From positions 310,001 to 374,000 of the forward strand of contig NZ_LNSG01000002.1 in NCBI RefSeq assembly GCF_001468395.1: a DNA stretch of 64,000 nucleotides. The letters run 5' to 3'. Position numbers and translations under genes: made by a program. This DNA comes from Sphingopyxis sp. H073. GTDB taxonomy: Bacteria > Pseudomonadota > Alphaproteobacteria > Sphingomonadales > Sphingomonadaceae. Under the pieces are notes generated by a model. The model was not told the DNA's origin. It did no database searches and saw nothing but the letters and a program-made list of their open reading frames with translations. Numbering within the stretch: position 1 is the first letter of the stretch; every line of letters begins with the position of its first letter. This document shows, in pieces, positions 19,682-40,698 of this stretch.

Positions 19682-19710
19682 CCAATGGCCTGTGTCTATA
19701 GTTTCGATAG
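19682..19710 (-). promoter_or_regulatory. LysR/OxyR-like box upstream of dps (copy 1 of 3)
   Basis: Read on the plus strand: CCAAT, 3 bases, CTGT, 3 bases, then TATAGTTTCGATAG. The last part contains CTAT-N7-ATAG (the inner pair of the OxyR pattern) and a T-N11-A LysR box. The same 29-base composite occurs at 31937 and 40670 with the same internal spacing. Read toward dps, TATAGA could serve as a -10 element. Confidence 0.65.
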
Positions 19711-19779
19711 TTCTGGCGACCAGAAGGGGCGCTTGGAGCGGCATGGGAGCATAGGAAGGCAGTGAACCCCACATGCTCA

Positions 19780-19807
19780 TCAGGCATTCGGCTGATAGCC
19801 CAATACG
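19780..19807 (-). pseudogene. 3' end of a small gene cut off by the IS21-family element
   Basis: These bases, read on the minus strand after the ATACG repeat, complete the frame of the small gene at 22346-22584 with residues LGYQPNA and a TGA at 19780-19782. Removing the insertion and one ATACG copy rebuilds an 88-residue protein. Confidence 0.75.
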
Positions 19808-19928
19808 TGTGTTTCGGCTTGCAAAAGTGACCCCCATCTCGGGGATATCGGCGTCCAAAAATGACCCCCTGTCCTTGAGGCTTTGATGGCCAGATCGGCG
19901 GCTTGTGTAGCCGCGGATCGAGACGGGG

Positions 19929-21443
19929 ATGTTGGTAGTGGAGACGGTGGCGAAGATCCGGCGCGAGCACTTCGCGCGGGGCAAGGGCGTGAAGACGATC
20001 GCGCGGGAGATGGGCCTGGCGCGCAACACGGTGCGCAAGGTTTTGAGGTCGGGAGCGACCTCGCTGGAGTACGAGCGCCGCGAGCAGCCGCACCCGAAGC
20101 TGGGGCCGTTCATCGAGCGGCTGGAGGCGCTACTGGAGGCCAATGCGTCCGGCGCTCGCAAGGATCGGCTGACGCTGATGCGGATCAGCGATCTGCTGCG
20201 CCGGGAGGGCTATGACGGCGGTTACGACGCGGTGCGGCGCTATGCGGGGCGCTGGTCGGTTCAGCACCGAGGCGTGAGCTCTCCGGTCGAGGCCTTCGTG
20301 CCGTTGAGCTTCGCGCCGGGCGACGCCTATCAGTTCGACTGGAGCCACGAGCAGGTCGAGATCGGCGGCACACCTCTGACGGTGAAGGTCGCCCACGTGC
20401 GCCTCTGCCATAGCCGCCGCTTCTACATCCGGGCCTATCCGCGCGAGACCCAGGAGATGGTGTTCGACGCCCATGCCCGGGCCTTCCAGGCGTTCGGCGG
20501 CGTCACCCGAAGGGGCATCTACGACAACATGAAGACCGCCGTTGAAGCGGTGTTCACCGGTAAGACCCGCCGCTTCAACCGGCGCTTTGAGCAGATGTGC
20601 TCGCACTATTTGATCGAGCCGGTGGCCTGCACGCCAGCCTCGGGATGGGAGAAGGGCCAGGTTGAGAACCAGGTCGGCTACGCCCGTGACAACATCTTCA
20701 AGCCGCGCCTACGCTTCCGGAGCCTGGAGGAGCTGAACGGCTGGCTGGAGGCCGAGTGCGTGCGCCGGGCCCGCAACGATCGCCATCCCGAGCACCGCGA
20801 TCGCGTCGTCTGGGATGTCTACGAGGCTGAGCGGCCGTTCCTGGCTCCCTTCGCCGGCCCCTTCGACGGCTTCCACCAGATCGAGGCCGTCGCCCAGGCC
20901 ACCTGCCTGATCACCTTCGATCGCAACCGCTACTCGGTGCAGGCCAAGGCCGCGCGACGAGCCGTCCAGATCCGCGCCTACGCCGACCGGATCATGGTGC
21001 TGTGCGACGGCGAGGTGGTGGCCGATCACCCGCGCGGCTTTGGCCGTGACCATACTGTCTACGATCCCTGGCACTACCTGCCCGTCCTGGCTCGCAAGCC
21101 CGGGGCGCTGCGCAACGGCGCGCCATTCCAGGAATGGGCGCTGCCGCCCGCCTTCAACAGGCTGCGCAAGCGGCTGGGCTCTGGCGACGAGGCCGACCGG
21201 CGCTTCGTGCGGGTCCTGGCGGCGGTGCTGGACGATGGCCTCGACGCCGTCGACCACGCTGTCCAGGAAGCGCTCGACGCCGGCGTCGCCAGCGACGAGG
21301 TAATCCTCAACATCCTGGCCCGCCGACGCGAGCCGCCCAGGCCCGATGCGATCACGACTTGCCAAGCCCTGGCTTTGAGCCACCCGCCGATCGCCGACTG
21401 CGCGCGCTACGACCTGCTGCGAGGCTCCTGTGCAGCGGCATGA
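19929..21443 (+). CDS. istA: IS21-family transposase IstA
   Basis: A 504-residue DDE transposase. The N-terminal helix-turn-helix is [18 protein letters not shown] (about 20-40). Catalytic residues appear in [14 protein letters not shown] (about 136-149), [10 protein letters not shown] (about 197-206) and [19 protein letters not shown] (about 238-256; the Glu), in IstA order and spacing. The 3' end overlaps istB by 14 bases, the usual coupling in this family. Confidence 0.95.
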
Positions 21444-22158
21444 GATGATCCAGGCCCTGAGCGAGTTGGGCCTCAAGGGCATGGCCGGCGCCTTCGATGA
21501 CGCCGTCACCACGGGCCTGCAGCGCAAGCGCACCGCCATGGAGATTCTGGCTGACCTCGTGAAGGCCGAGGCCGCCCATCGTCAGGCCGCCTCGATCCGC
21601 TACCGGATCACCGCCGCCAAGTTGCCGGTGCTCAAGGACCTGGCGCACTTCACCTTCGAGGGCTCGCCTATCAACGAGAGCCTCGTGCGCGCCCTGCATG
21701 GCGGCTCCTTCCTGGCCGATCACCGCAACATCGTCCTGATCGGCGGCACGGGCACCGGCAAGACCCACCTGGCCATCGCCATCACCGCCAACGTCGTGCG
21801 AGCCGGCGCGCGCGGGCGCTACTTCAACACCGTCGATCTGGTGAACCGTCTTGAGGACGAGGCCCGGCGCGGCAAGACCGGCGCCTTGGCCGCCCAGCTC
21901 TCGCGTCTGGACGTCGTGGTGCTCGACGAGCTCGGCTACCTGCCATTCGCCCAGTCCGGCGGCCAGCGCCTCTTCCACCTGATCAGCAAGCTCTACGAGC
22001 GCACCTCAGTGATCATCACCACCAACCTGACCTTTGGCGAATGGCCCACCGTCTTCGGCGACGCCAAGATGACCACGGCGCTGCTCGACCGCCTGACCCA
22101 TCACTGCGACATCGTCGAGACCGGCAACGACAGCTGGCGCCTCAAGACCAGGGCTTGA
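21430..22158 (+). CDS. istB: IS21-family helper ATPase IstB
   Basis: A 242-residue AAA+ ATPase that assists IstA in target selection. Walker A is [15 protein letters not shown] (about 96-110) and Walker B is [12 protein letters not shown] (about 160-171); [26 protein letters not shown] near 198-223 carries the sensor and arginine-finger region. Length and motifs match intact IstB proteins. Confidence 0.95.
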
Positions 22159-22345
22159 TCCACAATCTATTCAACCTCCCCCAGACCCCCTCCGGGCAGC
22201 TGAATCTCACGCAGCTCACCCGGCGGCGACGCGCTGCGCTAGCTGACCGCTACGCGCCTCGCCGCCGGTCCGGGAACAGAGACCAGAGGGGTCAATTTTG
22301 GACGCCGATAGGGGGTCAATTTTCAACGCCGTTTGACACAATACG

Positions 22346-22584
22346 AAAGCGATAACCTTCTCCGAGGACATCTCGCACGGCTTCAGCGACGCACTGCCCG
22401 AAGCAACGCGATACAGATTGAAGCTGACTATGTCGTTCCCGGCTAGTTCTCGAGCAAAAAGGCTGTTCCTCCGTCCATCCTCCGACCGACGAACCGTCAC
22501 GCCGAAACGCCTGTCTTCGTAAGCGCCTTCGCTATACCCCTCAGGCAGGCGCTCGAAAGCCGTATCGAATTCTGGATGGTCCAT
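22346..22584 (-). pseudogene. Small unknown gene interrupted by the IS21-family element
   Basis: The first 79 residues of a protein beginning MDHPEFDTAFERLPEGYSEG read to the ATACG repeat and then run into the insertion sequence, where the frame continues for about 40 foreign residues. Rebuilding across the element gives an 88-residue product. It matches no family I recognise; the segment DRRFGVTVRRSEDGRR suggests a small soluble protein. The loss removes only the last eight or nine residues, so partial function is possible. Confidence 0.7.
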
Positions 22585-22646
22585 TCTGCATCACCGCCAA
22601 TCGGCCTTCGCCCTGCGAACGTGAGCGCCGCGCCATGCGATTGGGG

Positions 22647-23093
22647 TCATCGCGTCAGTCTGACGTTGCGGCCCCAAAGAAACCCCGCGTCATTAGCGCT
22701 AGCGAAGTCGGGGTCCACGTAGATGAAAACACGCTTGATAAGCGTGCCGTCGAACTCGAATACGTTGGCGAAACGGCCTTCGGACCGGCCTTCAACCGGC
22801 CACGCCGTGCCGTCAGCCATAACGCCACCTTCAAAGCCTTCGACGATCACGTGGTCGCCGGCTACGTGGAAGGTCATGCGATCGAAATCGTGCTCGATCC
22901 GCTGAAGCGACCCCAACAGACCCTTGGCGACTTCCATGAATTCGGCTTTGCCATATCCAACTCCGAACTTCGGGAAGTACGTCACGACATCGTCAGTCAG
23001 AATATCGAGAATGGTGGGATCTCCACTGTCGATTTTCCGGAAATAGTCGGTGGCGATGGCGATGCGCTCTTGGGTTAGCTCTGTATTCGGCAC
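22647..23093 (-). CDS. SnoaL/NTF2-like domain protein
   Basis: A 148-residue protein of the NTF2-like superfamily: helix RIAIATDYFRKIDSGD, then LDILTDDVVTYFPKFG, the MTFHVAGDHVIVEGF strands and GRFANVFEFDGTLIKRVFIYVD. Such proteins range from ketosteroid isomerase-like enzymes to ligand-binding proteins, so the activity is not assignable. It starts at GTG 23093. It lies near an SDR oxidoreductase gene on the same strand, 160 bases away, and could share a pathway. Confidence 0.75.
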   Translation of the reverse strand: MPNTELTQERIAIATDYFRKIDSGDPTILDILTDDVVTYFPKFGVGYGKAEFMEVAKGLLGSLQRIEHDFDRMTFHVAGDHVIVEGFEGGVMADGTAWPVEGRSEGRFANVFEFDGTLIKRVFIYVDPDFASANDAGFLWGRNVRLTR

Positions 23094-23253
23094 TCTATGA
23101 ACTCCTGAAATGCGGAAGCTTTATCCACTATGGCTTCGAGAATAATGGGCCCTGCAGGATCAGCCGATCTGCTGCCCGGATTTCAACGGAGCGCTGAGGC
23201 GCGGAAGCGATCGTCCTTCAGCTATCCGCGTGACACGCCCGTCGCGCATCGTT

Positions 23254-24009
23254 TCAGACCAGGACGCCCCCTGACACATCTATCACCGCGCCAGCTGTGT
23301 AGCTTGCAGCGGGACTAACGAGGTAACTGACGGCGCCCGCCACTTCTTCAATCGTGGCGATCCGACGGATGGGATGCATATCGATGACGGCCTGCGGAAA
23401 ATTCTCAGCAACTTCTCCGGTCATGTCCGTCGGCATGATGCCAGGTTGGACCACATTGACGGTAATGTTGCGTGGGCCAAGATCGCGCTGCACCCCTCGG
23501 GCATATCCTGTGATCGCTGCCTTGGTTCCTGCGTAGTCGGCAATTCCCGGCACGATCGCTCGGGTACCCAGGCCGGAACCGATGAAGACAATGCGGCCAC
23601 CGTCAGAGATTTTCTGGGCCGCCGCGCGCGTGATCGCCACGGTCCCAAGCACATTGACCATCCACTGCCTGTCGAACGCAGCGGAATCGAGCGTCGGATC
23701 GTCGACCAATTTTCCTTGGACGGCGATTGCGGCGTTGTTGATCAAGATGTCGAGCTTGCCGAGTTCAGCTACGACCTGCTCGACCATGGGCTTGGCGGCG
23801 GACGTATCCGCTTGATCGCATCGGATCGCGAGAGCGCGAACGCCTTTGGCCCTCACCACCTCGGCGACGGACTCGGCTTTATCGGCCGAAGCAGCGTAGG
23901 TGATAGCAATATCGGCTCCCTGATCGGCGAGCGTCGCCGCCAGCACGGCGCCAAGGCCCCGAGAGCCACCCGTGATGATAGCGACTTTGCCGTCCAAAAC
24001 TTTCGACAT
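23254..24009 (-). CDS. Short-chain dehydrogenase/reductase
   Basis: A 251-residue classical SDR. The cofactor motif TGGSRGLG (residues 13-20), NNAAI (about 92-96), the catalytic Ser in FIGSGLG and YAGTK (Tyr and Lys, about 155-159) are present. The C-terminal VIDVSGGVLV is typical. Substrate unknown; FabG-like quinone or carbonyl reductions are likely. Adjacent stress genes suggest reduction of reactive carbonyls, which is inference. AGGAAC lies about 8 bases before the ATG. Confidence 0.88.
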   Translation of the reverse strand: MSKVLDGKVAIITGGSRGLGAVLAATLADQGADIAITYAASADKAESVAEVVRAKGVRALAIRCDQADTSAAKPMVEQVVAELGKLDILINNAAIAVQGKLVDDPTLDSAAFDRQWMVNVLGTVAITRAAAQKISDGGRIVFIGSGLGTRAIVPGIADYAGTKAAITGYARGVQRDLGPRNITVNVVQPGIMPTDMTGEVAENFPQAVIDMHPIRRIATIEEVAGAVSYLVSPAASYTAGAVIDVSGGVLV

Positions 24010-24047
24010 CGGCGGTTCCTTTTTGAAGTCTAATGGCCGGCTGACGG

Positions 24048-24329
24048 CTAAGCGACGTTGACGCCTTTCCAGAAGGCGATGTGATCCTTGATGGAGTGCG
24101 CCGCCGGAGAAGGGTCGGCGTACGTCCAGGCGGCGTTTGCATTGCGCCGGTCGCCGACCTGGAGATGGAAGTATTGCGCCGTCCCCTTCACGGGACAGAC
24201 AGACGTGTACTCGCTCGGTTCCAGATACTGCCGGTCAACCGATTGAGGCGGGAAATAATGGTTTCCGTCCACCACCACAGTCTCGTCGCTGACCGCGAGG
24301 ATGACATCGTTCCAAACTGCTGAGACCAA
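24048..24329 (-). CDS. DUF427 domain protein
   Basis: A 93-residue DUF427 protein. The signature runs from VVVDGNHYFPPQSV to SVCPVKGTAQYFHLQVGDRR and ends AAWTYADPSPAAHSIKDHIAFW. The family function is unknown. The best start is TTG 24329, preceded by AGAGGA at about 8 bases. It follows the glutaredoxin gene by 21 bases, so the two are probably co-transcribed. Confidence 0.82.
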   Translation of the reverse strand: MVSAVWNDVILAVSDETVVVDGNHYFPPQSVDRQYLEPSEYTSVCPVKGTAQYFHLQVGDRRNANAAWTYADPSPAAHSIKDHIAFWKGVNVA

Positions 24330-24350
24330 ACCGGAATCCTCTCTTGTCGT

Positions 24351-24665
24351 TCAGCCACTTGCATCGCCCAGTGGCCCTATCGGGCGGGACAAATCAGTTT
24401 GCCGGGGTTGTCCGGCAAGCAGCTTGTCGAGCGAGCCAGTTGCATCGAGCGCAACGAGATCGTCGGAGCCGCCGACATGCGTCTCGTTGATGAAGATCTG
24501 CGGCACGGTGCTTCGCCCCGACGACTCGATCATCGCCTTCCGGTGTGCAGGATCGGCTTCGATATCAAGCTCGGTGAATGCCACGCCCTTCTCTTGGAGG
24601 AGCGCCTTCGCGCGGCGGCAGAACGGGCACCAACTCGTGGTGTAGATGAGGACTTCAGGCTTCAT
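24351..24665 (-). CDS. Glutaredoxin
   Basis: A 104-residue dithiol glutaredoxin (GrxC type). The active site is SWCPFCRRAK (residues 10-19). The cis-proline loop STVPQIFINETHVGGSDDL (about 52-70) includes the glutathione-binding TVP and GG-D residues. It reduces protein disulfides and glutathione mixed disulfides, and could regenerate the Msr enzymes nearby. Start at ATG 24665; an upstream extension to 24779 lacks conservation. Confidence 0.92.
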   Translation of the reverse strand: MKPEVLIYTTSWCPFCRRAKALLQEKGVAFTELDIEADPAHRKAMIESSGRSTVPQIFINETHVGGSDDLVALDATGSLDKLLAGQPRQTDLSRPIGPLGDASG

Positions 24666-24827
24666 GTCGTGTCTCCAATCGTTGAGGGATGACGGGCCGG
24701 CCGGATTCGCGGGGGCCATCCGAAGGTGAAGGCAAAGGCTTGCGCCCCGGGGTAGAGAAGCTCGATTTCGAAGGTGCACTCGTGGACCTCGCCGCTTTGG
24801 CGTCCGAGTTGGTTGAGGCGCTGGGCA

Positions 24828-25196
24828 TCACGCCGCCATCTTTCGGACCGTGTCCAAAACCCGGTCTTGCCGGTATGGCTTGGCGAAGAACACAACGTCC
24901 GCTGGAACGACGGCCTCGACCGGCCAAGGCCTCCCGGACGTGATGATGATCTGAATGGTCGGCCACCGCCGGCGGATGCAAATGGCGAGCATGATGCCAT
25001 CGATCCCGCCGGGCATGTTCACGTCCGTGAACACGACGCGCACATCCAGTCGTTCCTCCAAGGTCATGAGCGCGGCGGATGCATTCGGCGCCTGCAAGAC
25101 TTCGAAGCCCGCCTCCTCGATCATGTCCGTCGCAAACAGACGGAGAAGTGGTTCGTCTTCGACGACGAGCACCACGGGTTTCACCATTCCACCCAT
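24828..25196 (-). CDS. Single-domain response regulator
   Basis: A 122-residue receiver domain with no output domain. Acidic residues sit in VVEDEPLL (about 12-19), the phosphoacceptor Asp in VVFTDVNMPGG (about 59), Ser/Thr in IITSGR and the Lys in FFAKPYRQD (about 106). It is 7 bases downstream of a HWE-type histidine kinase gene, its likely partner. Such stand-alone receivers of the HWE group usually act by protein contact or in a phosphorelay. Confidence 0.88.
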   Translation of the reverse strand: MGGMVKPVVLVVEDEPLLRLFATDMIEEAGFEVLQAPNASAALMTLEERLDVRVVFTDVNMPGGIDGIMLAICIRRRWPTIQIIITSGRPWPVEAVVPADVVFFAKPYRQDRVLDTVRKMAA

Positions 25197-25203
25197 ACTC
25201 CCA

Positions 25204-26808: not shown

Positions 26809-26874
26809 CGCAGTTCTCCTGGATGATGCCGCGAAGGTCGAGCGTGGCCGATCATCGGCGTTTCCCGCGTCATG

Positions 26875-27945: not shown

Positions 27946-27961
27946 TTTTTTCGTCCTCCGA

Positions 27962-30388: not shown

Positions 30389-31135
30389 CTACCCACCGTA
30401 GCGCTCGGTCTTGATGATCGAGACGCCCAGCCCTGCCGACAATGCGCTGTCCGTCGCGATGTTGACGAAACCGTTCGACCCGCAAACGAACACGTGGCCC
30501 GGGTCGCGACCGAGACGTGCGATTGTCGCCTGGACCATCCCATCGTCGATCCGTCGGCCATAGTCCGAGGCGCGCGTTGGCGCTTCTCGCGTAATCGCGA
30601 GCGTCAAGATGAACGTGGGATCGCTCATCTCGATTGAGTGGAGTTCGCTGGAGAAGAGCACGTCCTCAGCGGTTCGCGCCGACAAGAGCAGAGCGACTGG
30701 AACGGCCTGTGCCGATGCCCGACGCTGCCGGATCATCGCCATCAGCGGCACCACGCCTGAACCTGCGCCGATCAGCAGCACCGGCTTGTCGGTAGGCTCG
30801 GGCCAAAGAAAGTGGCCTCCAAGCGGTCCCCTGAGTTCGATCTCGTCGCCGGCTGCGGCGACGTCGTGGAAGAATGGCGAAACTTCGCCATTCGGCAGGC
30901 GCTCGATGGCGAGTTCCAGGATCGGTGAAGAGCCCGCCGACGATGCGATCGAATAACTGCGCATCGCCTGATAGCCGTCTGGGGCGGTCAGCCGGACGTC
31001 GACGTGCTGGCCTGCTGTATGGACGAATGGTTCCTGCAACCGCAGGAAAAAGCTCTTGATACTCGGTGTCTGTTGGACGATTTCGTCGATCACGCCTGAC
31101 TGCCACGACGCGGGTTGCGCATCGAACTCAGTCAT
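30389..31135 (-). CDS. Ferredoxin-NADP reductase-like FAD oxidoreductase
   Basis: A 248-residue flavoprotein of the FNR family. The FAD motif is MRSYSIASS (about 59-67), the flavin loop GEVSPFF, the NAD(P) motif LLIGAGSGVVPLMAMIRQ (about 122-139) and the C-terminal VFVCGSNGFVN (about 217-227). It has no iron-sulfur domain. Its ATG overlaps the molybdopterin enzyme stop by 8 bases (ATGACTGA), so it is almost certainly its electron-transfer partner, much as YedZ/MsrQ serves MsrP but soluble and NAD(P)H-driven (inference). Confidence 0.86.
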   Translation of the reverse strand: MTEFDAQPASWQSGVIDEIVQQTPSIKSFFLRLQEPFVHTAGQHVDVRLTAPDGYQAMRSYSIASSAGSSPILELAIERLPNGEVSPFFHDVAAAGDEIELRGPLGGHFLWPEPTDKPVLLIGAGSGVVPLMAMIRQRRASAQAVPVALLLSARTAEDVLFSSELHSIEMSDPTFILTLAITREAPTRASDYGRRIDDGMVQATIARLGRDPGHVFVCGSNGFVNIATDSALSAGLGVSIIKTERYGG

Positions 31136-31733
31136 GGGTGTACCGTTGCTCGCGCCACGGATCACCGTAGATGTGATAACCGCGCAACTCCCAGAACCCG
31201 GCCTCGTCGCGAGTGGTGAACTGCAGCGCATTCACCCACTTGGCGGACTTCCAGAAGTAGAGATGCGGAACAAGAAGGCGCGCCGGTCCGCCATGGTCGC
31301 GGGGAAGCGGCTGGCCCGCGTAGCTCAGCGCGACCATAGCTTTGCCGGACAACATGTCCGCGAGCGGAACATTCGTCGAATAGCCATCGTAGCAGTGCGC
31401 GAGAACGAAGTCTGTTGGCTGTTTAACTTCAGCGTCAGCGAGGATGTCCTCGATCAGCACGCCTTCCCACTTCGTGTCGAGCTTGGACCAGGACGTGACG
31501 CAGTGAATGTCTTTGGTCACTTTGGTCTTTGGAAGGGCGTTGAATTCACTCCAACTCCAGACCTTCACGGGTCTCGGACCGATCTTGACCGTGAACTTCC
31601 AGTCGGACGTCTCGATACGAGGCGTTGGCCCAGCGGTAAGAACGGGAAAGTTCTCCACGAGATGTTGACCTGGCGGAATACGGCCCTCGTGGTCGCCGCC
31701 TGAACCGCGGCCGGTGAAACCTCTGGTGACCAT
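31128..31733 (-). CDS. Sulfite oxidase-like molybdopterin oxidoreductase
   Basis: A 201-residue protein with a single oxidoreductase molybdopterin-binding domain. The Mo-ligating Cys is in DIHCVTSWSKLDTKWEG (about 76-92). DYGYSTNVPL-type and PRDHGGPARLLVPHLYFWKSAKWV segments match the SUOX/YedY fold; there is no haem domain, dimer domain or Tat signal, so it should be cytoplasmic. Related proteins reduce sulfoxides or oxidise sulfite. With the FNR-like partner downstream, a reductive repair role is attractive here. The gap upstream holds a copy of the LysR/OxyR-like box. Confidence 0.85.
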   Translation of the reverse strand: MVTRGFTGRGSGGDHEGRIPPGQHLVENFPVLTAGPTPRIETSDWKFTVKIGPRPVKVWSWSEFNALPKTKVTKDIHCVTSWSKLDTKWEGVLIEDILADAEVKQPTDFVLAHCYDGYSTNVPLADMLSGKAMVALSYAGQPLPRDHGGPARLLVPHLYFWKSAKWVNALQFTTRDEAGFWELRGYHIYGDPWREQRYTHD

Positions 31734-32035
31734 GCCGAACCCCCTTGCTCGTCACGACAGACCGACCGACTTCATCTCAGGCTAATGCGTAGATGACCCT
31801 CGCAAAGGAAAGATATCGAGCGGATCGCAAAGCTGATGTTCAGACAACCGGGTGTTAAATCAGTAGAGACACGCAATTCATCACTATGACTCGCGATAAT
31901 CCCGCCTCGACTATAGCTTTATATCAGACTGCTTTCCCAATGCCCTGTCGCTATAGTTTCGATAGCTTTGAATCGGTATTGCGTGAGCGTTATGGCTCGT
32001 GGGACAGAGAAGCTTCGCGAGGTGAGGTCGCCAGC
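31734..32035. promoter_or_regulatory. Divergent promoter region between the molybdopterin enzyme and nadE
   Basis: A 302-base gap between divergent genes. It contains the LysR/OxyR-like composite box at 31937-31965 and, about 30 bases before it, CCTCGACTATAGC. A similar CCTCGACTATCGC precedes the msrB copy of the box. No gene is convincing inside; a frame could be extended upstream of nadE to 31886 but would run through the box. Confidence 0.55.
31937..31965. promoter_or_regulatory. LysR/OxyR-like box (copy 2 of 3)
   Basis: CCAAT, 3 bases, CTGT, 3 bases, TATAGTTTCGATAG, identical in fixed positions to copies at 19682 and 40670. It lies about 71 bases before the nadE start (plus strand) and about 204 bases before the molybdopterin enzyme start (minus strand). 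The orientation matches the minus-strand targets at the other two loci, so either neighbour may be controlled. Confidence 0.65.
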
Positions 32036-32917: not shown

Positions 32918-32933
32918 ATTTGCTCCCGCCTAG

Positions 32934-32950
32934 GACATAGAAACTATGTC
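32934..32950. promoter_or_regulatory. Perfect palindrome GACATAG-AAA-CTATGTC
   Basis: A 7-bp perfect inverted repeat with a 3-base centre, 17 bases after the nadE stop and about 200 bases before the next operon. Its ATAG/CTAT arms recall LysR half-sites, but no T-tract follows, so it is more likely a protein-binding site than a terminator. Confidence 0.4.
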
Positions 32951-33019
32951 ACGCCGCTATTGGAAAAGACCGGCGTTGGAATTCATAGTCATCCACGTAA
33001 ACTCGTGGCCTCGTCGGGT

Positions 33020-33053
33020 ATAGTCGAGACAAGATTTTGGTCTTATCGACTAT
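33020..33053. promoter_or_regulatory. Long inverted repeat upstream of the thioredoxin-like gene
   Basis: ATAGTCGA at 33020-33027 pairs exactly with TCGACTAT at 33046-33053, and GAC/GTC inside extends the symmetry. It is about 100 bases before ATG 33152. It could be an operator or an RNA hairpin in the leader. Confidence 0.4.
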
Positions 33054-33151
33054 TTGACGCTCGGGCCGTGGGGCGGTGAAGTATAGCAGTTCCCCTGCGC
33101 TCGCGAGTTTTCGCTGCACGTCGGGCACATGCTTCGTGTTCGGAGAGAGGG

Positions 33152-33625
33152 ATGAGCGCGGCCGATCGTCAAGCGCCAGAGCTTCGCATTCATCGGTGGA
33201 TCGCCGTGGATGGAAGCGACCTTCAGACGCCGATCAAGCTATCGGATCTTGGCGTAGGGCCGAAGATCCTTTTCGCGTTTCAGCACTGGTGCAGGGGCTG
33301 CCATCTGCATGGGTTTCCCACACTGCAGAAATTGCATGGTGCGCTGGAGTCCAGAGGCGTCGGATTCGCAGTGATCCAGACGGTCTTCGAAGGAGCGCAC
33401 GAAAATACATTCGACAAGTTGCGCATCAATCAGGTGGAGTACCGTCTCCCCGTCGCCTTCGGGCACGACGAACCGCCGCCTGGTGCTGCGTTTCCAACGT
33501 TCATGGAGGATTACCGGACACGGGGAACGCCGTGGTTCACGGTCATCAATGCCGACGGTCGCATCGTCTTTTCGGATTTCCACCTGGACGCGGATCGTTT
33601 GGTGGCAAATTTGGAGAGCTCGTGA
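33152..33625 (+). CDS. Thioredoxin-fold protein (TlpA/AhpC-TSA-like)
   Basis: A 157-residue thioredoxin-like protein. The active site is FAFQHWCRGCHLHGF (CRGC, about 42-56) and the cis-Pro loop is RGTPWFTVINADGRIVF (about 123-139). There is no signal peptide, so it should be cytosolic. It probably reduces disulfides or peroxides. The DM13 gene begins 3 bases after its stop, and the MFS gene overlaps that, giving a three-gene operon. Confidence 0.82.
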   Translation: MSAADRQAPELRIHRWIAVDGSDLQTPIKLSDLGVGPKILFAFQHWCRGCHLHGFPTLQKLHGALESRGVGFAVIQTVFEGAHENTFDKLRINQVEYRLPVAFGHDEPPPGAAFPTFMEDYRTRGTPWFTVINADGRIVFSDFHLDADRLVANLESS

Positions 33626-33628
33626 AAC

Positions 33629-34120
33629 ATGCCACGGTGGCTCATTCTAGCCTGCACCCACTTCGTCGTTGGCATCACAGGCTTTGCTGCCGGCATCTAC
33701 ACGCTGCCTATCCTCACCGCGCCGGCGTCGCCCACTGAAGCTGCGTTGAGGAGTTCGACGCCTGAGGCGCTCTATTCGGGAAAGCTTTCTCGTGATCTAG
33801 CCGGCAGCGACCTGCTGCACTGGGGTGAAGGCGAAGTGCAGATCCTGCCTCACCGGATCGCACACATCGGCCGTCTCTCTCCCGGGCCGGACTACAAGCT
33901 TTATCTCGCCCCGCACTTCGTCGAGACCGAGGAAGCGTTCCTCGCGATCAAGGACGCGTCGGCCCGGGTCGGCGATGTGAGGACGTTCAACGGCTTCATT
34001 ATGGAGGTGCCCGCCGACATCGACGTTCGCGACTACAGCGCCGTTGTCATCTGGTGCGAAGCCTTTGATCAGTTCATCAGTTCTGCGGCGTATCAGCCTC
34101 CGCGCCAGGCTCGGAAATGA
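33629..34120 (+). CDS. DM13-domain membrane-anchored protein
   Basis: A 163-residue protein with an N-terminal hydrophobic segment (about 4-30, LILACTHFVVGITGFAAGIY) that is a signal anchor. A DM13 domain follows: ALYSGKLSRDLAGSDLLHWGEGEVQI through DYKLYLAPHFVETEEAFL to DYSAVVIWCEAFDQFIS, where the Cys near the end is the conserved DM13 cysteine. DM13 domains are proposed to bind redox cofactors or haem; the function is unproven. It is translationally linked to both neighbours. Confidence 0.83.
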   Translation: MPRWLILACTHFVVGITGFAAGIYTLPILTAPASPTEAALRSSTPEALYSGKLSRDLAGSDLLHWGEGEVQILPHRIAHIGRLSPGPDYKLYLAPHFVETEEAFLAIKDASARVGDVRTFNGFIMEVPADIDVRDYSAVVIWCEAFDQFISSAAYQPPRQARK

Positions 34121-35388
34121 GTCAGGCGATGAACAGCGTGAAGGCGGCCTGCGCGCGGGGGCTCGTTTTGGCGCCGGTCGCAGCGCTATTGTTGAGCGTC
34201 GCCACGTTGCTCTTGGGCAATGGTCTACTGGGTACGCTCCTGATCGTGAGGGCTGGGGAGGAAGGCTTTTCAGCTCAAACGATCAGCGCGATGATGTCCC
34301 TATACTTTGCGGGCTTCACCATTGGCGCTCTCACGCTGCCCAAGATGATCGTGTCCGTGGGCCATGTGAGGACTTTCGCTGGCTTCGCCGCGATCGCCTC
34401 AATGACGGCTCTTCTTCATGTCGCATTCGTGGAGGCGAACGTATGGATGCCGCTTCGCCTTGTGACCGGCTTCGCCTATGCAGGCATGATCCTAGCGACT
34501 GAGAGTTGGCTCAACGCGCACGCGATTCAATCCACGCGCGGTCAGCTTTTGTCGATCTTCGGCGTTGTTTCGATGGGTTCATGGGCCCTTGGTCAAGCGC
34601 TGCTCAACATCGCGCCGCCTGCAGACGTGACGCTATTCCTGTTCGTCTCGCTGCTGATATCTGCGGCCGTCGTCCCCGTCACGCTACTGCCCAGTCATCC
34701 CCCGGCCGAGGTTCAACAGGAGCCCGTCGCCTTTCGCGATCTCGTTGCAATTTCGCCCCTTCCGTCGGTCGGCGTTTTCCTAGCCGGCCTGGCCATCGGC
34801 GGCTTCTGGGGACTAGGCCCCAATTTTGCGCAGAGGATTGGCCTCGATGTGGGCGGCATTTCTGCGTTCATGGCTGCGGTCCTTGGTGGAACGCTCGTGC
34901 TGCAGTGGCCATTGGGATGGCTATCGGACCGCGTGTCGCGGACACTCGTCATTGCCGGCGCCGCCCTGGCTTCCGCGGCGGCTGCGATCGGCGTAGCGCT
35001 GGCTGCGGAGGCGCCTCTGCCTGTGCTACTTGCGGCGGGCGCGCTGTTCGGCGGCTTCGGTATTCCCATCTATTCGCTATGCCTTGCCGTTGCGAATGAC
35101 GACCTTCCTGCGGGTCGGCTGCTGGGGACCGCTCGCGGACTTCTCCTACTCAACGGGATCGGAACCGCCGCCGGGCCGCTCATCGGAGGCCTGGTGATGG
35201 ACCTCCTCGGCCCTGGCGGCCTGTTCCTCTACGCAGCGGCACTGCTGACTGCCCTGGCGGTCTTGGCCGGTGTCCGCAGGCACTCAGACCGCTCGGTCAA
35301 GACGAGAGCAACACGCTGCCCGAGCACGGCGATGATCACCGGGTCGCTCGACGCGATGATACGAACCCCGGCGGATCAGCGCCGCTGA
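34117..35388 (+). CDS. MFS transporter (YcaD-like)
   Basis: A 423-residue major-facilitator protein with about 12 hydrophobic helices. SLYFAGFTIGALTLPKMI, RLVTGFAYAGMILATESWLNAHA and SRGQLLSIFGVVSMGSWALGQ (loop 4-5) are typical of the YcaD subgroup of small-molecule exporters. Its ATG overlaps the DM13 gene stop (ATGA). The cargo is unknown; the operon context suggests export of an oxidised or toxic compound (inference). Confidence 0.85.
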   Translation: MSQAMNSVKAACARGLVLAPVAALLLSVATLLLGNGLLGTLLIVRAGEEGFSAQTISAMMSLYFAGFTIGALTLPKMIVSVGHVRTFAGFAAIASMTALLHVAFVEANVWMPLRLVTGFAYAGMILATESWLNAHAIQSTRGQLLSIFGVVSMGSWALGQALLNIAPPADVTLFLFVSLLISAAVVPVTLLPSHPPAEVQQEPVAFRDLVAISPLPSVGVFLAGLAIGGFWGLGPNFAQRIGLDVGGISAFMAAVLGGTLVLQWPLGWLSDRVSRTLVIAGAALASAAAAIGVALAAEAPLPVLLAAGALFGGFGIPIYSLCLAVANDDLPAGRLLGTARGLLLLNGIGTAAGPLIGGLVMDLLGPGGLFLYAAALLTALAVLAGVRRHSDRSVKTRATRCPSTAMITGSLDAMIRTPADQRR

Positions 35389-35464
35389 GACGCCTATGCC
35401 GACGACCGAAGGATTGCCAGTCGGCTGTTAGAGGAGCCTGGCTGAGAACAAGGCGGAACGTGTC

Positions 35465-36190
35465 ATGGATGAGAGCGTGAACGCTCTAGCCGCGAGAAAC
35501 GCATACGAGGCTAAACGGGGGGCGATCGCCATCCTCCCGTTGGCCTTGGGGGCCAGCGTGTACGGCTTGGCCTTTGGTTTCCTGGCCGTACAGGTAGGTT
35601 TCCCGTGGTGGGGCGTCGCGATCATGAGCGCCTCTACCCATGCGGGCTCTTCGCAAATCATCGCGGTTGAGCAGTTCGCTTCCACAGGTGTCGTGTTGGG
35701 CGCGGTTCTGGCCGGTGCGTCACTCAACCTGCGCTATGTCGGCATCATCGCCTCTTTATCCGAGGTGTTGGCCGGCTTGTCGCTGAGGAAGAAGCTCTTC
35801 GCCATCCACATTACTGGCGACGAGAACTGGGCTTTGACGATGTCCGAGCGGGCGAAGTCCCCCGATGTCGGAGCACCATTCCTCATAGGCTCAGGGCTGG
35901 TGAACATCTCCATGTGGACAGCCTCCACGACGCTCGGGGCCTTGCTTGGCGCCGCGCTGCCCGATCTCGGACGCTTTGGCCTGAGCTTCGCGTTCACGGC
36001 GGCCTTCATTGCGATGGCGCGAGGTCTGTGGCGGGGACGTTCCCAAGTTCTGCCATGGACCATGGCCGCGGCAGCGACCATGGCCGTCATCTCGCTCGGC
36101 ATGCCCAAAGCTTACGGGATCATCGTCGGCGCATTCTTCGGCTTGGTGGTGACCTTCTTGAAGCGCAGGATCGAGGCGGCAGCCCGATGA
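35465..36190 (+). CDS. azlC: AzlC family branched-chain amino acid exporter subunit
   Basis: A 241-residue membrane protein of the AzlC/YgaZ family with about six helices. ILPLALGASVYGLAFGFLA (near 20), STHAGSSQIIAVEQFAS (about 58-74) and HITGDENWALT (about 115-125) are conserved. With AzlD it forms an exporter for branched-chain amino acids or analogues. It overlaps azlD by ATGA. Confidence 0.9.
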   Translation: MDESVNALAARNAYEAKRGAIAILPLALGASVYGLAFGFLAVQVGFPWWGVAIMSASTHAGSSQIIAVEQFASTGVVLGAVLAGASLNLRYVGIIASLSEVLAGLSLRKKLFAIHITGDENWALTMSERAKSPDVGAPFLIGSGLVNISMWTASTTLGALLGAALPDLGRFGLSFAFTAAFIAMARGLWRGRSQVLPWTMAAAATMAVISLGMPKAYGIIVGAFFGLVVTFLKRRIEAAAR

Positions 36191-36483
36191 GCGCTTCGCA
36201 CTGGGGTGTTGTCAGTTTGCTCGTTGTGGCTGCGTTTGCGATCCGGGTCGCCGGATTGATTGCCGGTGAACGAATTAGGGTTTCCAGGCAGGCTTGGGTT
36301 CTGGACGAGTTGCCTGGGCTGATCGTGGTCAGCTTGGTCGCGTCGTCGTTGATCGGTCAGCCACCTCCAACCTGGATCGCGGCCGGTGTCGCGCTGGGTG
36401 CAGCGATCGCCACGAACCAGGTCATCGTGGCGATGGTATTGGGAATGCTCGCCTACGCAGGTCTGGGGTGGCTTAGCTCGTAA
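36187..36483 (+). CDS. azlD: AzlD family membrane protein
   Basis: A 98-residue small membrane protein with three to four hydrophobic segments, the AzlD/YgaH partner of AzlC. The segment VLDELPGLIVVSLVASSLIG is typical. It starts in the azlC stop codon and ends the operon. Confidence 0.9.
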   Translation: MSASHWGVVSLLVVAAFAIRVAGLIAGERIRVSRQAWVLDELPGLIVVSLVASSLIGQPPPTWIAAGVALGAAIATNQVIVAMVLGMLAYAGLGWLSS

Positions 36484-36589
36484 GTGCCGATCATCTGAGA
36501 GAAGCGGCAATGGGGAGGCCGGATGTCGTCCAGTAAGGCTGCGAACGTCGATGGCCCGCACTCACGATCCGAGGACCGCGGGTCCTCGC

Positions 36590-37039
36590 CTACGCAACAG
36601 CCTCCACGGTCAAATCGCGGCCATTGAACTGCACCGTTTCCCCGGCTCGCGCGCCTTCGATCGCCTCGTAGATCGGGGCCATCGTCGAGATGCCCATCAG
36701 TTCCTGCCCATGACAAATGAACCTGCCAGTCGAGACCGAAATGACGAAGTGCTTACCGGACAGCTTGACGACGGCGCCTTCCGAGACTTCTGACTTTGGT
36801 CCAAAATCGATTGTCCGGAGTTTGTCGAGCTTATCAACATAGTCATCGAGAGTGTCATCGAGCGCCTCAGCAAAGTCGCTCGCCACCTCGGCTTGCGCCT
36901 GCTCGTCGTTCTCGATCGGCTCGCTGCGATCGAGGCGCGCGGTGGAGACGTAATCCAGATACTTCTTGCGAGCGCTTTGCAGCGCCGCGGTTTCAAGCGA
37001 CAGCATTGTCTCGCGAATATGGTCCTTGTTCCAGTCCAT
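36590..37039 (-). CDS. GreA/GreB C-terminal-like protein with helical N-terminus
   Basis: A 149-residue protein. Residues 1-75 form long helices with many charged residues (HIRETMLSLETAALQSARKK and EALDDTLDDYVDKLDKL). Residues 85-148 resemble the FKBP-like C-terminal domain of GreA/GreB or Rnk: SEGAVVKLSGKHFVISVS through GISTMAPIYEAIEGARAGETVQFNG. The tip residues of a true Gre finger cannot be confirmed. It may bind RNA polymerase. ATG 37039 is favoured over 37081 because of the preceding GAGGCAGAG. Confidence 0.55.
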   Translation of the reverse strand: MDWNKDHIRETMLSLETAALQSARKKYLDYVSTARLDRSEPIENDEQAQAEVASDFAEALDDTLDDYVDKLDKLRTIDFGPKSEVSEGAVVKLSGKHFVISVSTGRFICHGQELMGISTMAPIYEAIEGARAGETVQFNGRDLTVEAVA

Positions 37040-37115
37040 CTCTGCCTCGTTATTTTTGACCTTAAGGGGCATCCCATCCATCGTTGGGGTCTGGGTTTCC
37101 CGCGCTCCGCCGACA

Positions 37116-37688
37116 TCATTCGTCGGTAATAACGTCTTCGCCCTGGTAGGGAATCCTGATCAGCCGGGGATCCCGAATAATGCTCGTCACGAGCCAGACG
37201 TATGATTGTTCTGCTGTATCGAAGCCGAGGATGCTGAAGGCTCCCCCGAACGGGCATGCCGGAAAGTCAGGGAAGCCTTCCCGCAAAACGTAACGCTCAG
37301 GGTCGCGATCAAACTCGCTTTTGTAGACTTTGCGCAGCCCATGCTTGCTCGGCACGTCGGCGTCACCGGCCGGAGCTGTTTCACGATGCTCAAGAAGCCG
37401 TTCGGACAGGTCACGGTGACATATCTCGTCGAACACATCGAAGGCATCGATAAGCAGACCTTTATGCTCGGTCGCCGGATCTGTGATGGCGTAGATGTTC
37501 GAGGCGTCTTCGGCTCCATCGCCGCTCTCAAGGCGTAATGCGGCATCGACACGAATGCTGCACGCGTCGAGGGTCGATCCGAGTTCGAGATCGACAAGAG
37601 CGCCGTCCTTCACACGGTACTCTCGGTCATAGCCCTTAGCCACGAAGGACTGTACGGCGTCCAGAACGTCTCTCACTGGAGTTGTCAT
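37116..37688 (-). CDS. Two-part protein of unknown function
   Basis: About 190 residues, starting MTTPVRDVLDAVQSF. The first half (LDAVQSFVAKGYDREYRVKDGALVDLELG, and later AEDASNIYAITDPATEHKGLLIDAFDVF) resembles the small proteins often mislabelled phosphoribosylpyrophosphate synthetase in other genomes. The second half has no match I recognise. There is no signal or membrane segment. It lies on the same strand as the GreA-like gene, with about 76 bases between them. Confidence 0.55.
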   Translation of the reverse strand: MTTPVRDVLDAVQSFVAKGYDREYRVKDGALVDLELGSTLDACSIRVDAALRLESGDGAEDASNIYAITDPATEHKGLLIDAFDVFDEICHRDLSERLLEHRETAPAGDADVPSKHGLRKVYKSEFDRDPERYVLREGFPDFPACPFGGAFSILGFDTAEQSYVWLVTSIIRDPRLIRIPYQGEDVITDE

Positions 37689-37782
37689 CAATGCACCTCG
37701 AGTTCGGATTGTAGGGGTTGCGCGCCGACCGAAGGCGCGCTTTGGCTCCGTGACCGACCAGCACTGAAGATGCGGAGCACCA

Positions 37783-38751
37783 TCATAGCCACTTGGCTCG
37801 CTTGAAGCGGACGAACAGGAAAAGACAGAACGTCAGCATTAGGCCGAGCACGACGAAATAGCCGTAAGCTGTGTCCAGCTCCGGCATGTTCCTGAAGTTC
37901 ATTCCATATATGCCCGCGATGGCCGTAGGGACCGCGAGGATCGCCGCCCAGGCAGCGAGCTGGCGCGTGATGACGCCTGTCCTCTGCGCCTCAAGAAGGC
38001 TGCTGAATTCGAAGACCGTGGACAGCACCTGGAGGAGGCCATCGACCATGGACTGGACCCGATCGACATGGTCGGCGACATCGTTGAAGTACGGCCGCAC
38101 CTCAGCGCTGATGCACGGGAAATGTCCGCGAACGAGCTTGCGCACCAGTTCCGCCATAGCGCCAAGGGTTCGCTGGAAACGCGTCAATTCGCATCGCAAG
38201 CCGAAGATGCGCGCGACCTCCGCCCGCCCCAGGAAGTCGTCGAGCGATCGCCTCTCCATCGCGAGCACGTCGTCCTCGATCATTTCGAAGATCGGCAGAT
38301 ACTGATCGACGATGCGGTGAAGGATGGCATGCAGGACGTAGTCGACACCCTTACCAAACTGAGCAGGCGAACCCTCAAGCTGCTCGCGAAGATTGCCAAG
38401 CGCTCCGGCGTTGCCGTGACGCACGGTGATCAGATGGTTGTGACCAGTGAAGATCGCGGTCTTGCCGTAGCGTATGCGGTCCCCAACCAGCTCGGCCGTC
38501 TGAGCGACGACGTAAAGCTCGCCGTTATAGACTTCGAGCTTCGGCGGGCACATCGGATGCATCGCGTTATCAATCGCCAATGGATGCAGATTGTAGGTCG
38601 ACTGAAGCGCCCTGAGTTCGCTTTCCGAAGGCTCGCTGAGCCCAATCCAGCAGAAGCCAGATCGGTTCTTGTCGAGCTCAACCCGCTCGTCGATAGCGAC
38701 TTCGCGGATGCGGCGACCCTCGTCGTAATAGTAAGCGGCGATGACGCTCAT
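37783..38751 (-). CDS. corA: CorA-type divalent cation transporter
   Basis: A 322-residue 2-TM-GxN transporter. A large N-terminal cytosolic domain with a long helix (about 160-250) precedes two C-terminal membrane helices. The pore signature is IAGIYGMNFRNMPE (YGMN, about 272-285), followed by YGYFVVLGLMLTFCLFLFVRF. It moves Mg2+, Co2+ or Zn2+. The ATG overlaps the stop of the GST gene by four bases (ATGA), an unusual pairing. Confidence 0.92.
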   Translation of the reverse strand: MSVIAAYYYDEGRRIREVAIDERVELDKNRSGFCWIGLSEPSESELRALQSTYNLHPLAIDNAMHPMCPPKLEVYNGELYVVAQTAELVGDRIRYGKTAIFTGHNHLITVRHGNAGALGNLREQLEGSPAQFGKGVDYVLHAILHRIVDQYLPIFEMIEDDVLAMERRSLDDFLGRAEVARIFGLRCELTRFQRTLGAMAELVRKLVRGHFPCISAEVRPYFNDVADHVDRVQSMVDGLLQVLSTVFEFSSLLEAQRTGVITRQLAAWAAILAVPTAIAGIYGMNFRNMPELDTAYGYFVVLGLMLTFCLFLFVRFKRAKWL

Positions 38752-39452
38752 GCGGGCCTCGCAGGGATAACCAGGCCCCGCTGCACGGCTGGTCGAGCGA
38801 GGCCGCGATCCAACCAACCCCGGACGTTCCGGTGTTCGGCGATGCGCAACAGGTCACCGGCGTCATAGGTGCTGACCAGGGCATTGACCCAGCCGAGCGT
38901 CGCGATGTCGGCGATGGAATAGTCGTCGACGATCCACTCGCGCCCATCCAGCTGGCGATCCAAGATCCCCAGCAGGCGCTTGGACTCGTCGGCGAACCGT
39001 TGCTGAGGCCGCTTGTCCTCGTAGTCCTTTCCGCCCCAACGCAGAAAGAAGCCCAGCTGACCGAACATCGGGCCGATCGCCGACATCTGGAAGAATACCC
39101 AACTCAGCACCTCATAACGCCTGGCTTGTCCCGGTGGGATCAATCGGCCCGTCTTCTCGGCGAGGTAAACGAGGATCGCACCGGACTCCCAAACGCCGAG
39201 CGGCTCACCATCGGGCCCTGACGGATCGATGATCGCAGGGATCCGCCCGTTTGGGTTCAGCGACACGAAAGCGGGGTCTTTGGCCTCGTTTGTGCTGATG
39301 TCGATAAAGTGCGGCTCGTATGGCAGGCCGGTCTCCTCGAGCATGATGGAGACCTTGACGCCGTTGGGCGTGGGCGCTGCATAGAACTGCAGGAGATCGG
39401 GATTGGAGGCAGGCCAGCGCTTGGTGATCGGATATGACGAAAGGTCTGGCAT
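38748..39452 (-). CDS. Glutathione S-transferase (YghU/YfcG-like)
   Basis: A 234-residue GST. The N-terminal thioredoxin-fold half reads LLQFYAAPTPNGVKVSIMLEE (about 19-39), LNPNGRIPAIIDP and WESGAILVYLAEKTGR (the glutathione-binding ESGAI); the helical half ends DYSIADIATLGWVNA. The TPNG motif is the Nu-class (YghU/YfcG) mark, whose members have disulfide-bond reductase and peroxidase activity. It is co-transcribed with corA. Confidence 0.9.
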   Translation of the reverse strand: MPDLSSYPITKRWPASNPDLLQFYAAPTPNGVKVSIMLEETGLPYEPHFIDISTNEAKDPAFVSLNPNGRIPAIIDPSGPDGEPLGVWESGAILVYLAEKTGRLIPPGQARRYEVLSWVFFQMSAIGPMFGQLGFFLRWGGKDYEDKRPQQRFADESKRLLGILDRQLDGREWIVDDYSIADIATLGWVNALVSTYDAGDLLRIAEHRNVRGWLDRGLARPAVQRGLVIPARPA

Positions 39453-39586
39453 GCTGGGGCAATCCTACCAAATCGATGGCCGGCAAGCGGCATGACCGCT
39501 TGAGGGGCCGTACGAGGACCGCATCGTTCGCCGATGCGGTCCCATTGCTTGCGATGCAGAGCGCTATGTCGCGATAGGCGCTGCAG

Positions 39587-40126
39587 CTATTCTGCTGCCG
39601 CTCCGGTGGTAGGCTGGGTAGCACCAGCGTCTTGACGCTTGGGGAGCACCCAATTCGCGCGCGGAAAATGGCACGTGTAACCGCCCGGGCGCTTCTCGAG
39701 ATAGTCTTGGTGCTCCGGCTCCGCTTCCCAGAAATCGCCGACAGGCTCGACTTCGGTGACGACTTTGCCGTCCCACAGTCCGGAGGCGTCGACGTCGGCG
39801 ATCGTCTCCTCGGCGACCCGCTTCTGCTCATCGTCCACATAGTAGATGCCGGATCGATAGGAGAGGCCGCGATCGTTGCCTTGCCGATCTTTCGTCGTCG
39901 GGTCGTGGATCTGGAAGAAGTATTCCAGGATGTTACGGTAACTTGTCGCTGCCGGGTCGAAAATGATCTCGATCCCTTCAGCGTGAGTACCGTGATTGCG
40001 ATAGGTGGCGTTCGGGACGTCGCCACCGGTGTATCCGACGCGGGTCGACACGATGCCGGGCTGCTTGCGGATCAGATCCTGCATGCCCCAAAAACATCCG
40101 CCTGCGAGAACAGCGCGCTGATGCAT
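39587..40126 (-). CDS. msrA: Peptide-methionine (S)-S-oxide reductase MsrA
   Basis: A 179-residue MsrA with the canonical active site [13 protein letters not shown] (residues 6-18), [45 protein letters not shown] and [20 protein letters not shown] near the C-terminus, where the recycling Cys lies. It reduces methionine-S-sulfoxide. ATG 40126 has GGAGGAGG 7 bases upstream. It begins 2 bases after the msrB stop, forming an msrB-msrA operon that covers both sulfoxide epimers. Confidence 0.94.
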
Positions 40127-40127
40127 G

Positions 40128-40571
40128 TTACGCCTCCTCCACCTGATCGAGATATTCGCCGTAGCCCTCGGCTTCCATCTCATCGCGCGGGATGAAGCGA
40201 AGGGCGGCCGAGTTAATGCAATAGCGCAGTCCGCCACGGTCGGCCGGACCGTCGGGGAACACGTGGCCGAGATGGCTGTCGCCATGGACCGATCGAACTT
40301 CCGTCCGGACCATGCCGTGCGAACTGTCCCGCACCTCGTTCACGTGCGCGGGGACGATGGGCTTGGTGAAGCTGGGCCAGCCGGATTTCGACTCGAACTT
40401 GTCCGTCGATGCGAAAAGCGGCTCTCCGGACACGACATCGACGTAGATGCCCGGTTCTTTGTTATCGTTGTATTCACCGGTGAAGGCTCGCTCCGTGCCG
40501 TCTTCCTGGGTGATCCGGCGTTGCTCGGGGGTCAGGCGGTCGATCGCTGCCTGAGACTTTTCAAACTTCAT
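40128..40571 (-). CDS. msrB: Peptide-methionine (R)-S-oxide reductase MsrB
   Basis: A 147-residue Msr[13 protein letters not shown] (about 65-76), [29 protein letters not shown] (about 100-128; the catalytic Cys in RYCIN) are clear. The two CxxC zinc pairs seen in many MsrB proteins are absent (the region reads [13 protein letters not shown]), so this is a zinc-free form. Start at ATG 40571, GGAGACG upstream. It heads the msrB-msrA operon and has the LysR/OxyR-like box about 100 bases upstream. Confidence 0.93.
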
Positions 40572-40669
40572 GATCGTCTCCAATACTTGGTTTCAGGGCC
40601 AAGGCACATTACGGACATCTTATCTTGCTTGACGGTCACCTCGACTATCGCAGTGCCAATTATATTTAT

Positions 40670-40698
40670 CCAATACGCTGTGCGTATAGTTTCGATAG
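40670..40698 (-). promoter_or_regulatory. LysR/OxyR-like box upstream of msrB (copy 3 of 3)
   Basis: CCAAT, 3 bases, CTGT, 3 bases, TATAGTTTCGATAG, in the 148-base gap between the LysR gene and msrB, about 99 bases from the msrB ATG. The distance is almost the same as for dps. The inner GTAT-N7-ATAG differs by one base from copies 1 and 2. Confidence 0.65.

Follow-up and report, generated by a model that had tools for sequence, protein, structure and literature searches.

Several described oxidant-defence systems resemble parts of a 64,000-nucleotide stretch of Sphingopyxis sp. H073 (contig NZ_LNSG01000002.1, positions 310,001 to 374,000; hereafter the window), in which a 29-base box recurs upstream of oxidant-defence genes, one copy lying beside a gene for a LysR-type protein (40720-41595). 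OxyR has a redox cysteine pair of the C199/C208 type, and its binding site is built of four half-sites, ATAG-N7-CTAT-N7-ATAG-N7-CTAT, with CTAT-N7-ATAG at the centre. HypT, the hypochlorite-responsive LysR protein of Escherichia coli, becomes active when Met123, Met206 and Met230 are oxidised and controls sulfur amino acid and iron genes (reviewed in PMC7464077). Perchlorate-reduction islands carry the SigF/NrsF-YedYZ-MrpX hypochlorite defence, which combines sigma/anti-sigma control with a periplasmic repair cycle (PMC4623255). Finally, an msrB-msrA-yfcG-corA cluster of carbapenemase plasmids has been called plasmid backbone or a neighbour of ISCR27 or ISEc33, and the portions of these accounts used here name no regulator, box or regulon for it (PMC9984417, PMC4785139).

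Here we report that the box very probably serves the LysR at 40720-41595 as operator and forms the upstream half of a promoter that depends on an activator. The system shares with the OxyR regulon a regulator of the LysR family, the CTAT-N7-ATAG spacing, a cysteine (C198) that aligns with the first redox cysteine of the genome's own OxyR, and targets of the dps type; it differs in that its LysR scores far below the OxyR cut-off and has no second redox cysteine, only three of the four half-sites are conserved, and the regulon is mobile and local. As far as the parts of the three other descriptions used here extend, HypT is likewise of the LysR family and linked to methionine sulfoxide repair, but it uses methionines, whereas in the present LysR no internal methionine is invariant and four cysteines are. 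The SigF/NrsF-YedYZ-MrpX system is likewise a mobile island with methionine sulfoxide repair and a molybdopterin enzyme, but is under sigma/anti-sigma control where we find a putative LysR operator; and the plasmid cluster has the same gene order as msrB-msrA-gst-corA here. LysR regulons are a known kind and the msrB operon is known as plasmid backbone, but the regulator at 40720-41595, its operator and its regulon are new to the literature searched: none is named in the titles or abstract starts of the open-licence literature, among the matches listed. The anonymous carbapenemase-plasmid backbone gains a proposed regulator and operator together with a set of genes predicted to share their control, and its role in surviving disinfectants becomes directly testable. 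A LysR regulon is also seen to spread in company with its probable operators, the range extending from bacteria of soil and water to plasmids carried by gut bacteria.

Distribution of the box in the genome

Three copies of the box (A, B and D in Table 1) had been recognized in an initial annotation of the window, and both their positions and the complete identity of their 14-base core, TATAGTTTCGATAG, proved correct. So did the similar distances to dps and msrB, put at about 96-99 bases; we count 95 and 98 bases, respectively, between box and start codon. The layout given, with a leading C or G before the core, reaches 29 bases only as CCAAT-N3-CTGT-N3-TATAGTTTCGATAG, the leading base being the last of the three N. 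The core occurs exactly three times in the 4,309,020-base genome, always in the window, and its reversed control not at all; a repeat search grouped the three boxes as one direct-repeat family of 34 bases. Read towards the genes, on the complementary strand, the composite box is CTATnGAAACTATA-N6-G-N3-ATTGG, which we searched for as CTATNGAAACTATANNNNNNGNNNATTGG. This genome-wide search, proposed in the annotation, returned nine sites with up to three mismatches and none for the reversed pattern. The nine sites fall into two clusters, three sites in the window (contig C2) and six at C6:85680-114993. Neither the C6 cluster nor a fourth window site, box C, had been noticed before; with box C, found when four mismatches were allowed, the genome holds ten sites, four in the window and six on C6. 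Sites orthologous to box C are present in loci L072-L078, L129 and others. Chance is excluded as the source of these repeats. The flanks of boxes A, B and D are unrelated (22-31% identity), and the boxes are therefore not copies of one duplicated promoter.

Association of the box with the adjacent LysR

The protein encoded at 40720-41595 belongs to the LysR-type transcriptional regulators (LTTRs), scoring 65.2 bits for HTH_1 (cut-off 26.6) and 92.8 bits for LysR_substrate (cut-off 28). Its gene has the orientation of msrB, lies immediately upstream of it and ends 21 bases before box D. The annotation had put this protein forward as the binder of the box, which we consider likely from the co-occurrence of the two and from a neighbourhood that is kept down to 42% LysR identity.

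Across 41 relatives, the box (up to two mismatches) is present in three, and the same three encode a close LysR (at least 84% identity). Among 80 congeneric genomes the box occurs in nine and the LysR (E<=1e-50) in eight, all eight of which bear the box; 71 of the 72 genomes without the LysR have no box, and the reversed control gave 0. In the ninth box-bearing genome, G080, a match to the second island of strain H073 (99.9% identity over 26.8 kb) ends between msrB and its box, and the LysR is therefore gone there. Order-wide, the box was found in six of 396 genomes and relatives of the LysR (E<=1e-70, at most six candidates scored per genome) in three, namely the present genome, G355 (42% identity) and G296 (43%). 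At this scale two-mismatch matches are near noise, since the reversed control gave five matches in the 396 genomes; the one two-mismatch match each in G178 and G414 and the single match at G080:C4, as rare as the control, were treated as chance. G355 and G296 carry the box just before msrB, with two and three mismatches, and have a thioredoxin-like gene and an OsmC-fusion sequence nearby. Three Rhizobium loci whose LysRs are 62-63% identical also have a box with two to three mismatches just before msrB. The lysR-msrB-box neighbourhood is thus retained down to 42% LysR identity.

In 64 LysR loci, fetched from one-genome-per-species contigs and many of them near-identical, we counted 146 box matches at up to four mismatches against 0 for the control in 1.13 Mb, and 60 of the 64 loci have at least one box. 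Among the boxless loci, the LysR match of L124 stops at residue 266 before unrelated sequence, in L134 the contig end holds just 29 LysR residues, and L135 matches at only 27%. In a further boxless locus, L085 (10861-11010), the msrB box gives way to unrelated sequence at its tenth base, apparently a natural operator knock-out by insertion.

Anatomy of the box and putative promoter signals

From the loci fetched by then we took 116 distinct 129-base stretches around boxes, all from sites with 40 bases before and 60 after the box, and kept 72 that are less than 75% identical. The box averages 1.32 bits per position, a value inflated by the choice of the sites with the search pattern itself, against 0.13 upstream and 0.12 further downstream. 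Positions above 0.5 bit are G0 (directly before the box), T2, A3, T4, G6, A7-A14, G21 and T24-G29, and, beyond the box, A30, A32, A33, A51, T52, A53 and T55; G0, A30-A33 and A51-T55 are conserved though they lie outside the pattern.

Read gene-ward, the box contains two overlapping LysR motifs of the form T-N11-A, at positions 2-14 and 13-25, upstream of and near the predicted −35 as is usual for LTTRs. Among the 72 sites, T2 and A14 have frequencies of 0.90 and 0.79 and T13 and A25 of 1.0 each, all four positions being part of the search pattern. The first motif coincides with the dyad CTAT-N7-ATAG. Viewed as half-sites, CTAT-N7-ATAG-N7-xTAT, the central two and the one on the −35 side are conserved, and the upstream outer (fourth) half-site shows no conservation among these 72 sites. 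The likeness to the centre of OxyR sites that had been remarked on thus holds for the half-site spacing but does not extend to the fourth half-site.

In 66 of 106 distinct sites (those with at least 60 bases after the box) the box is followed, at an offset of 21 or 22 bases, by ATAGT, an element that was not part of the search pattern; at no other offset does it occur in more than three sites. It stands at the usual place in seven of the ten sites of the genome. Judged from the position of ATAGT, the ATTGG at the end of the box would occupy the −35 place. Because ATAGT stands at a fixed offset after the box, the likely unit is an operator plus a weak promoter, and the fixed −10-like element suggests a promoter that depends on an activator. 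The annotation's view of the boxes as LysR-type operators preceding genes of oxidant defence finds support, and its promoter aspect is backed by the fixed −10-like element.

Several observations weigh against the LysR operator-promoter reading. At 40 of the 106 sites ATAGT is absent from the usual place. In this genome that holds for box A and for the sites facing gnd and cytochrome P460, the first two having TCATC(T/C)TC in common where ATAGT would be expected. Box C carries four mismatches. A scan with the standard sigma-70 consensus finds no promoter at box D, which counts against the −35/−10 assignment, though we read it as a weak, activator-dependent promoter. Most of the loci share recent ancestry, and the counts are not independent. 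In G355 another gene separates lysR from the box. Lastly, genome G413 (locus L154) has four boxes with one to three mismatches but only a 32% LysR beside msrB, and no close LysR at E<=1e-70 with at most six candidates scored per genome.

Alternative regulators and origins of the box

The case of G413 bears on one alternative, in which another LysR of the island, or a set of paralogues, binds the box. Besides G413, which keeps its four boxes with only the 32% LysR nearby, strain H073 itself has two close LysRs (87% identical) and one 32% LysR, and the helix-turn-helix stretch QPSLTRAI is common to the window LysR and that of G413. Against this, four genomes with only a 30-34% LysR (G012, G020, G028 and G040) have no box at up to two mismatches, and we regard the alternative as improbable. 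The G413 island resembles those of L103 and L109; either its LysR has been lost or another LysR serves there. Upstream of msrB, L154 has, with its 32% LysR, an open reading frame (ORF) judged peroxiredoxin-like from its translation.

About as improbable, in our view, is that the box is an OxyR site through which the genome's own OxyR (C5:191982-192884) controls these genes under peroxide, as the annotation's OxyR reading would have it. The CTAT-N7-ATAG centre with a third half-site, xTAT, seven bases later is what such a site would present, dps is among the targets, and in one plasmid record (H19) the LysR is labelled hydrogen peroxide-inducible genes activator. However, OxyR is found in 79 of the 80 congeneric genomes (the one without a match is 88% complete) and the box in nine, and OxyR therefore cannot explain where boxes occur; all nine sites with up to three mismatches lie in the C2 and C6 clusters and none on C5 with OxyR. 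The local LysR itself falls far short of an OxyR: it scores 72.3 bits on an OxyR model with a cut-off of 329, which is strict for this clade in that the genome's own OxyR reaches 230.9 bits, and is 22% identical to the latter. Its C198 aligns with the first OxyR redox cysteine, and there is no cysteine at the second position. On the co-occurrence pattern and the model score we rejected OxyR as the binder.

We also rejected, as extremely unlikely, an origin of the repeats as parts of a mobile or repetitive element rather than as regulatory sites, because the flanks of the three window boxes are unrelated; the island is mobile and 135 bases separate the dps box from an IS21-like element, but the sites keep their orientation and, in 32 of 38 cases, their distance from msrB, and the −10-like element has a fixed place.

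Genes facing the boxes

Targets were called for the 106 sites from the first blastx match, within 1200 bases, to any of 12 reference proteins from these islands, which derive from genes beside boxes in this genome. By this measure 99 sites stand before homologues of nine reference genes: msrB (38), the molybdopterin oxidoreductase (24), the thioredoxin-like gene (12), a quinone reductase (9), dps (7), gnd (3), a small ORF upstream of an msrA-like gene (3), cytochrome P460 (2) and the msrA-like gene itself (1); seven are unassigned. Of the msrB-facing sites, 32 of 38 stand 86-99 bases before the start. Box B had been placed in the gap between the molybdopterin enzyme and nadE; it faces the former, with 203 bases between box and start codon, and not nadE.

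The second cluster, on C6 (loci L031 and L032), is a paralogous oxidant-defence island with its own LysR, 87% identical to that of the window, and six boxes. It is 66-83% identical in pieces to the window and repeats the order lysR-msrB-msrA-gst-corA at 76.5% DNA identity over 5.2 kb.

Table 1. Boxes, genes and palindromes of the window discussed in the text; operator and target assignments are predictions.
Feature	Coordinates	Strand	Remarks
Box A, putative operator/promoter	19682-19710	-	Directed at dps; 0 mismatches to composite; no ATAGT after box
Box B, putative operator/promoter	31937-31965	-	Towards molybdopterin oxidoreductase, away from nadE; 0 mismatches; ATAGT 31910-31914
Box C, putative weaker operator/promoter	32935-32963	+	Directed rightwards; 4 mismatches; ATAGT 32985-32989
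Box D, putative operator/promoter	40670-40698	-	Between lysR stop codon and msrB; 0 mismatches; ATAGT 40644-40648
lysR, proposed cognate regulator	40720-41595	-	291 amino acids; HTH_1 and LysR_substrate above cut-off
dps (ferritin-like)	19092-19586 (ATG 19586)	-	Predicted target of box A; Pfam Ferritin 3.1e-23
Molybdopterin-binding oxidoreductase	31128-31733 (ATG 31733)	-	Predicted target of box B; Pfam Oxidored_molyb 3.2e-38
Reductase ORF	30389-31231		Follows molybdopterin oxidoreductase; FAD_binding_6/NAD_binding_1
Thioredoxin/AhpC-like protein	33152-33625	+	First gene after box C; Pfam AhpC-TSA 2.9e-4, 21.2 bits, below cut-off 26
DM13 gene	33629-34120		After thioredoxin-like gene; DM13 2.9e-15
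MFS gene	34117-35388		After DM13 gene; MFS_1 4.9e-20
msrB	40128-40571 (ATG 40571)	-	Predicted target of box D; TIGR00357 191 bits, cut-off 113
msrA	39587-40126	-	Downstream of msrB; PMSR
gst	38748-39452	-	Downstream of msrA; GST_N
corA	from 37783	-	Downstream of gst; CorA
Two TATGCG-N3-CGCATA palindromes, proposed MarR operator	41664-41718 (41664-41678, 41704-41718)		Before lysR and divergent OsmC fusion
Alpha/beta hydrolase-OsmC fusion	41822-43048	+	Divergent from lysR; Pfam OsmC 7.9e-13, hydrolase domains

Proposed mechanism and inducing signal

The sites, their spacing, their targets and their linkage to the LysR at 40720-41595 can be read directly from the DNA. From them we infer binding by a LysR tetramer, activation and oxidant sensing, as follows. 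When oxidised or otherwise activated, the tetramer would cover both the dyad CTAT-N7-ATAG and the half-site adjoining the −35, on a box laid out as two overlapping T-N11-A motifs with ATTGG at −35 and, mostly, ATAGT 21 or 22 bases on. Activating from the −35 side, it would recruit RNA polymerase and switch on a dispersed oxidant-defence regulon comprising msrBA-gst-corA, dps, the molybdopterin oxidoreductase with its reductase, and the thioredoxin-like/DM13/MFS genes; the part on the second island would also take in quinone reductase, gnd and cytochrome P460. A horizontally transferred island would carry the regulator along with its operators and targets.

Judging by gene content only, the inducing signal is most likely reactive chlorine or peroxide. 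The set of methionine sulfoxide reductases, molybdopterin oxidoreductase, Dps, glutathione S-transferase (GST), quinone reductase and NADPH supply fits hypochlorite or mixed oxidants, given the established roles of these families.

As to how the signal might be sensed, we compared 44 distinct LysR sequences (tblastn matches at E<=1e-30 of at least 280 residues without stops), 39 of which are at least 60% identical; counts of 40 in this set include the query twice. C144, C170, C198 and C238 are invariant in the 39 distinct sequences (at least 62% identity), and C198 also in five more distant ones. No internal methionine is invariant in the same 39 sequences, and a HypT-like methionine switch was not supported. 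Because four cysteines and no internal methionine are invariant, the sequences point to thiol rather than HypT-like methionine sensing. At E<=1e-10 the only solved-structure matches to the LysR are NtcB and an OxyR, in a structure set not checked for the presence of HypT.

A second palindrome and a possible MarR layer

The palindrome TATGCG-N3-CGCATA occurs five times in the window and its reversed control not once. The two copies between lysR and the OsmC fusion stand in tandem (Table 1). Of the others, one lies between rpiA and a glyceraldehyde-3-phosphate dehydrogenase (GAPDH) gene (46106-46120), one 19 bases before a MarR gene (palindrome 47668-47682, gene 47702-48211), and one (53869-53883) in the overlap between the 5′ ends of two ORFs predicted to encode a MarR (53323-53922) and a LysR (53830-54972). 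Two palindromes with up to two mismatches precede lysR in 55 of the 60 loci with enough sequence, a count made without a shuffled control; exact copies number two in 20 of these loci and one in 10. At up to two mismatches they are absent before lysR from the three Rhizobium loci, L082 and L124. The palindrome is probably a MarR operator, and a MarR repressor over lysR is likely.

Tentatively, and with considerable doubt, the island may be viewed as a self-contained transferable reactive-chlorine regulon with two tiers. A MarR repressor would act at the paired palindromes over lysR and the OsmC fusion, and the LysR would represent an undescribed class of cysteine-type chlorine sensor opening at least ten operators on two islands, the core having moved with its operators from environmental alphaproteobacteria to wastewater and clinical plasmids.

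Probable spread by mobile DNA

Identity to the LysR is 99-100% in records of Sphingopyxis, Sphingobium, Aliihoeflea, Roseomonas, Aurantimonas and Mesorhizobium, and about 90% in Escherichia, Serratia, Pantoea, Mixta, Thauera and others; the LysR therefore appears to move horizontally. At least 80% identity is reached in 159 plasmid records. Matches to the 2-kb segment occur in 21 of 5426 E. coli genomes, at 23 places that are all on plasmids, and reach at least 80% coverage in five genomes. In the plasmid stretches examined the order lysR-msrB-msrA-gst-corA is retained, and a 0-mismatch box separates lysR from msrB in every one; the control gave one match at up to four mismatches, in L137. A box near lysR/msrB persists on plasmids of Enterobacteria and Aeromonas.

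Two minor observations concern the islands. A conserved three-mismatch site ending GGTATTTC or GGCATTTC recurs in L109 (3509), L111 (3546), L114 (3470) and L154 (1794), the copies in L109, L111 and L114 having no assigned target gene. The IS21-like element near the dps box (19846-22310) comprises a transposase ORF (19929-21443) and IstB (21430-22158) between 23-base inverted ends.

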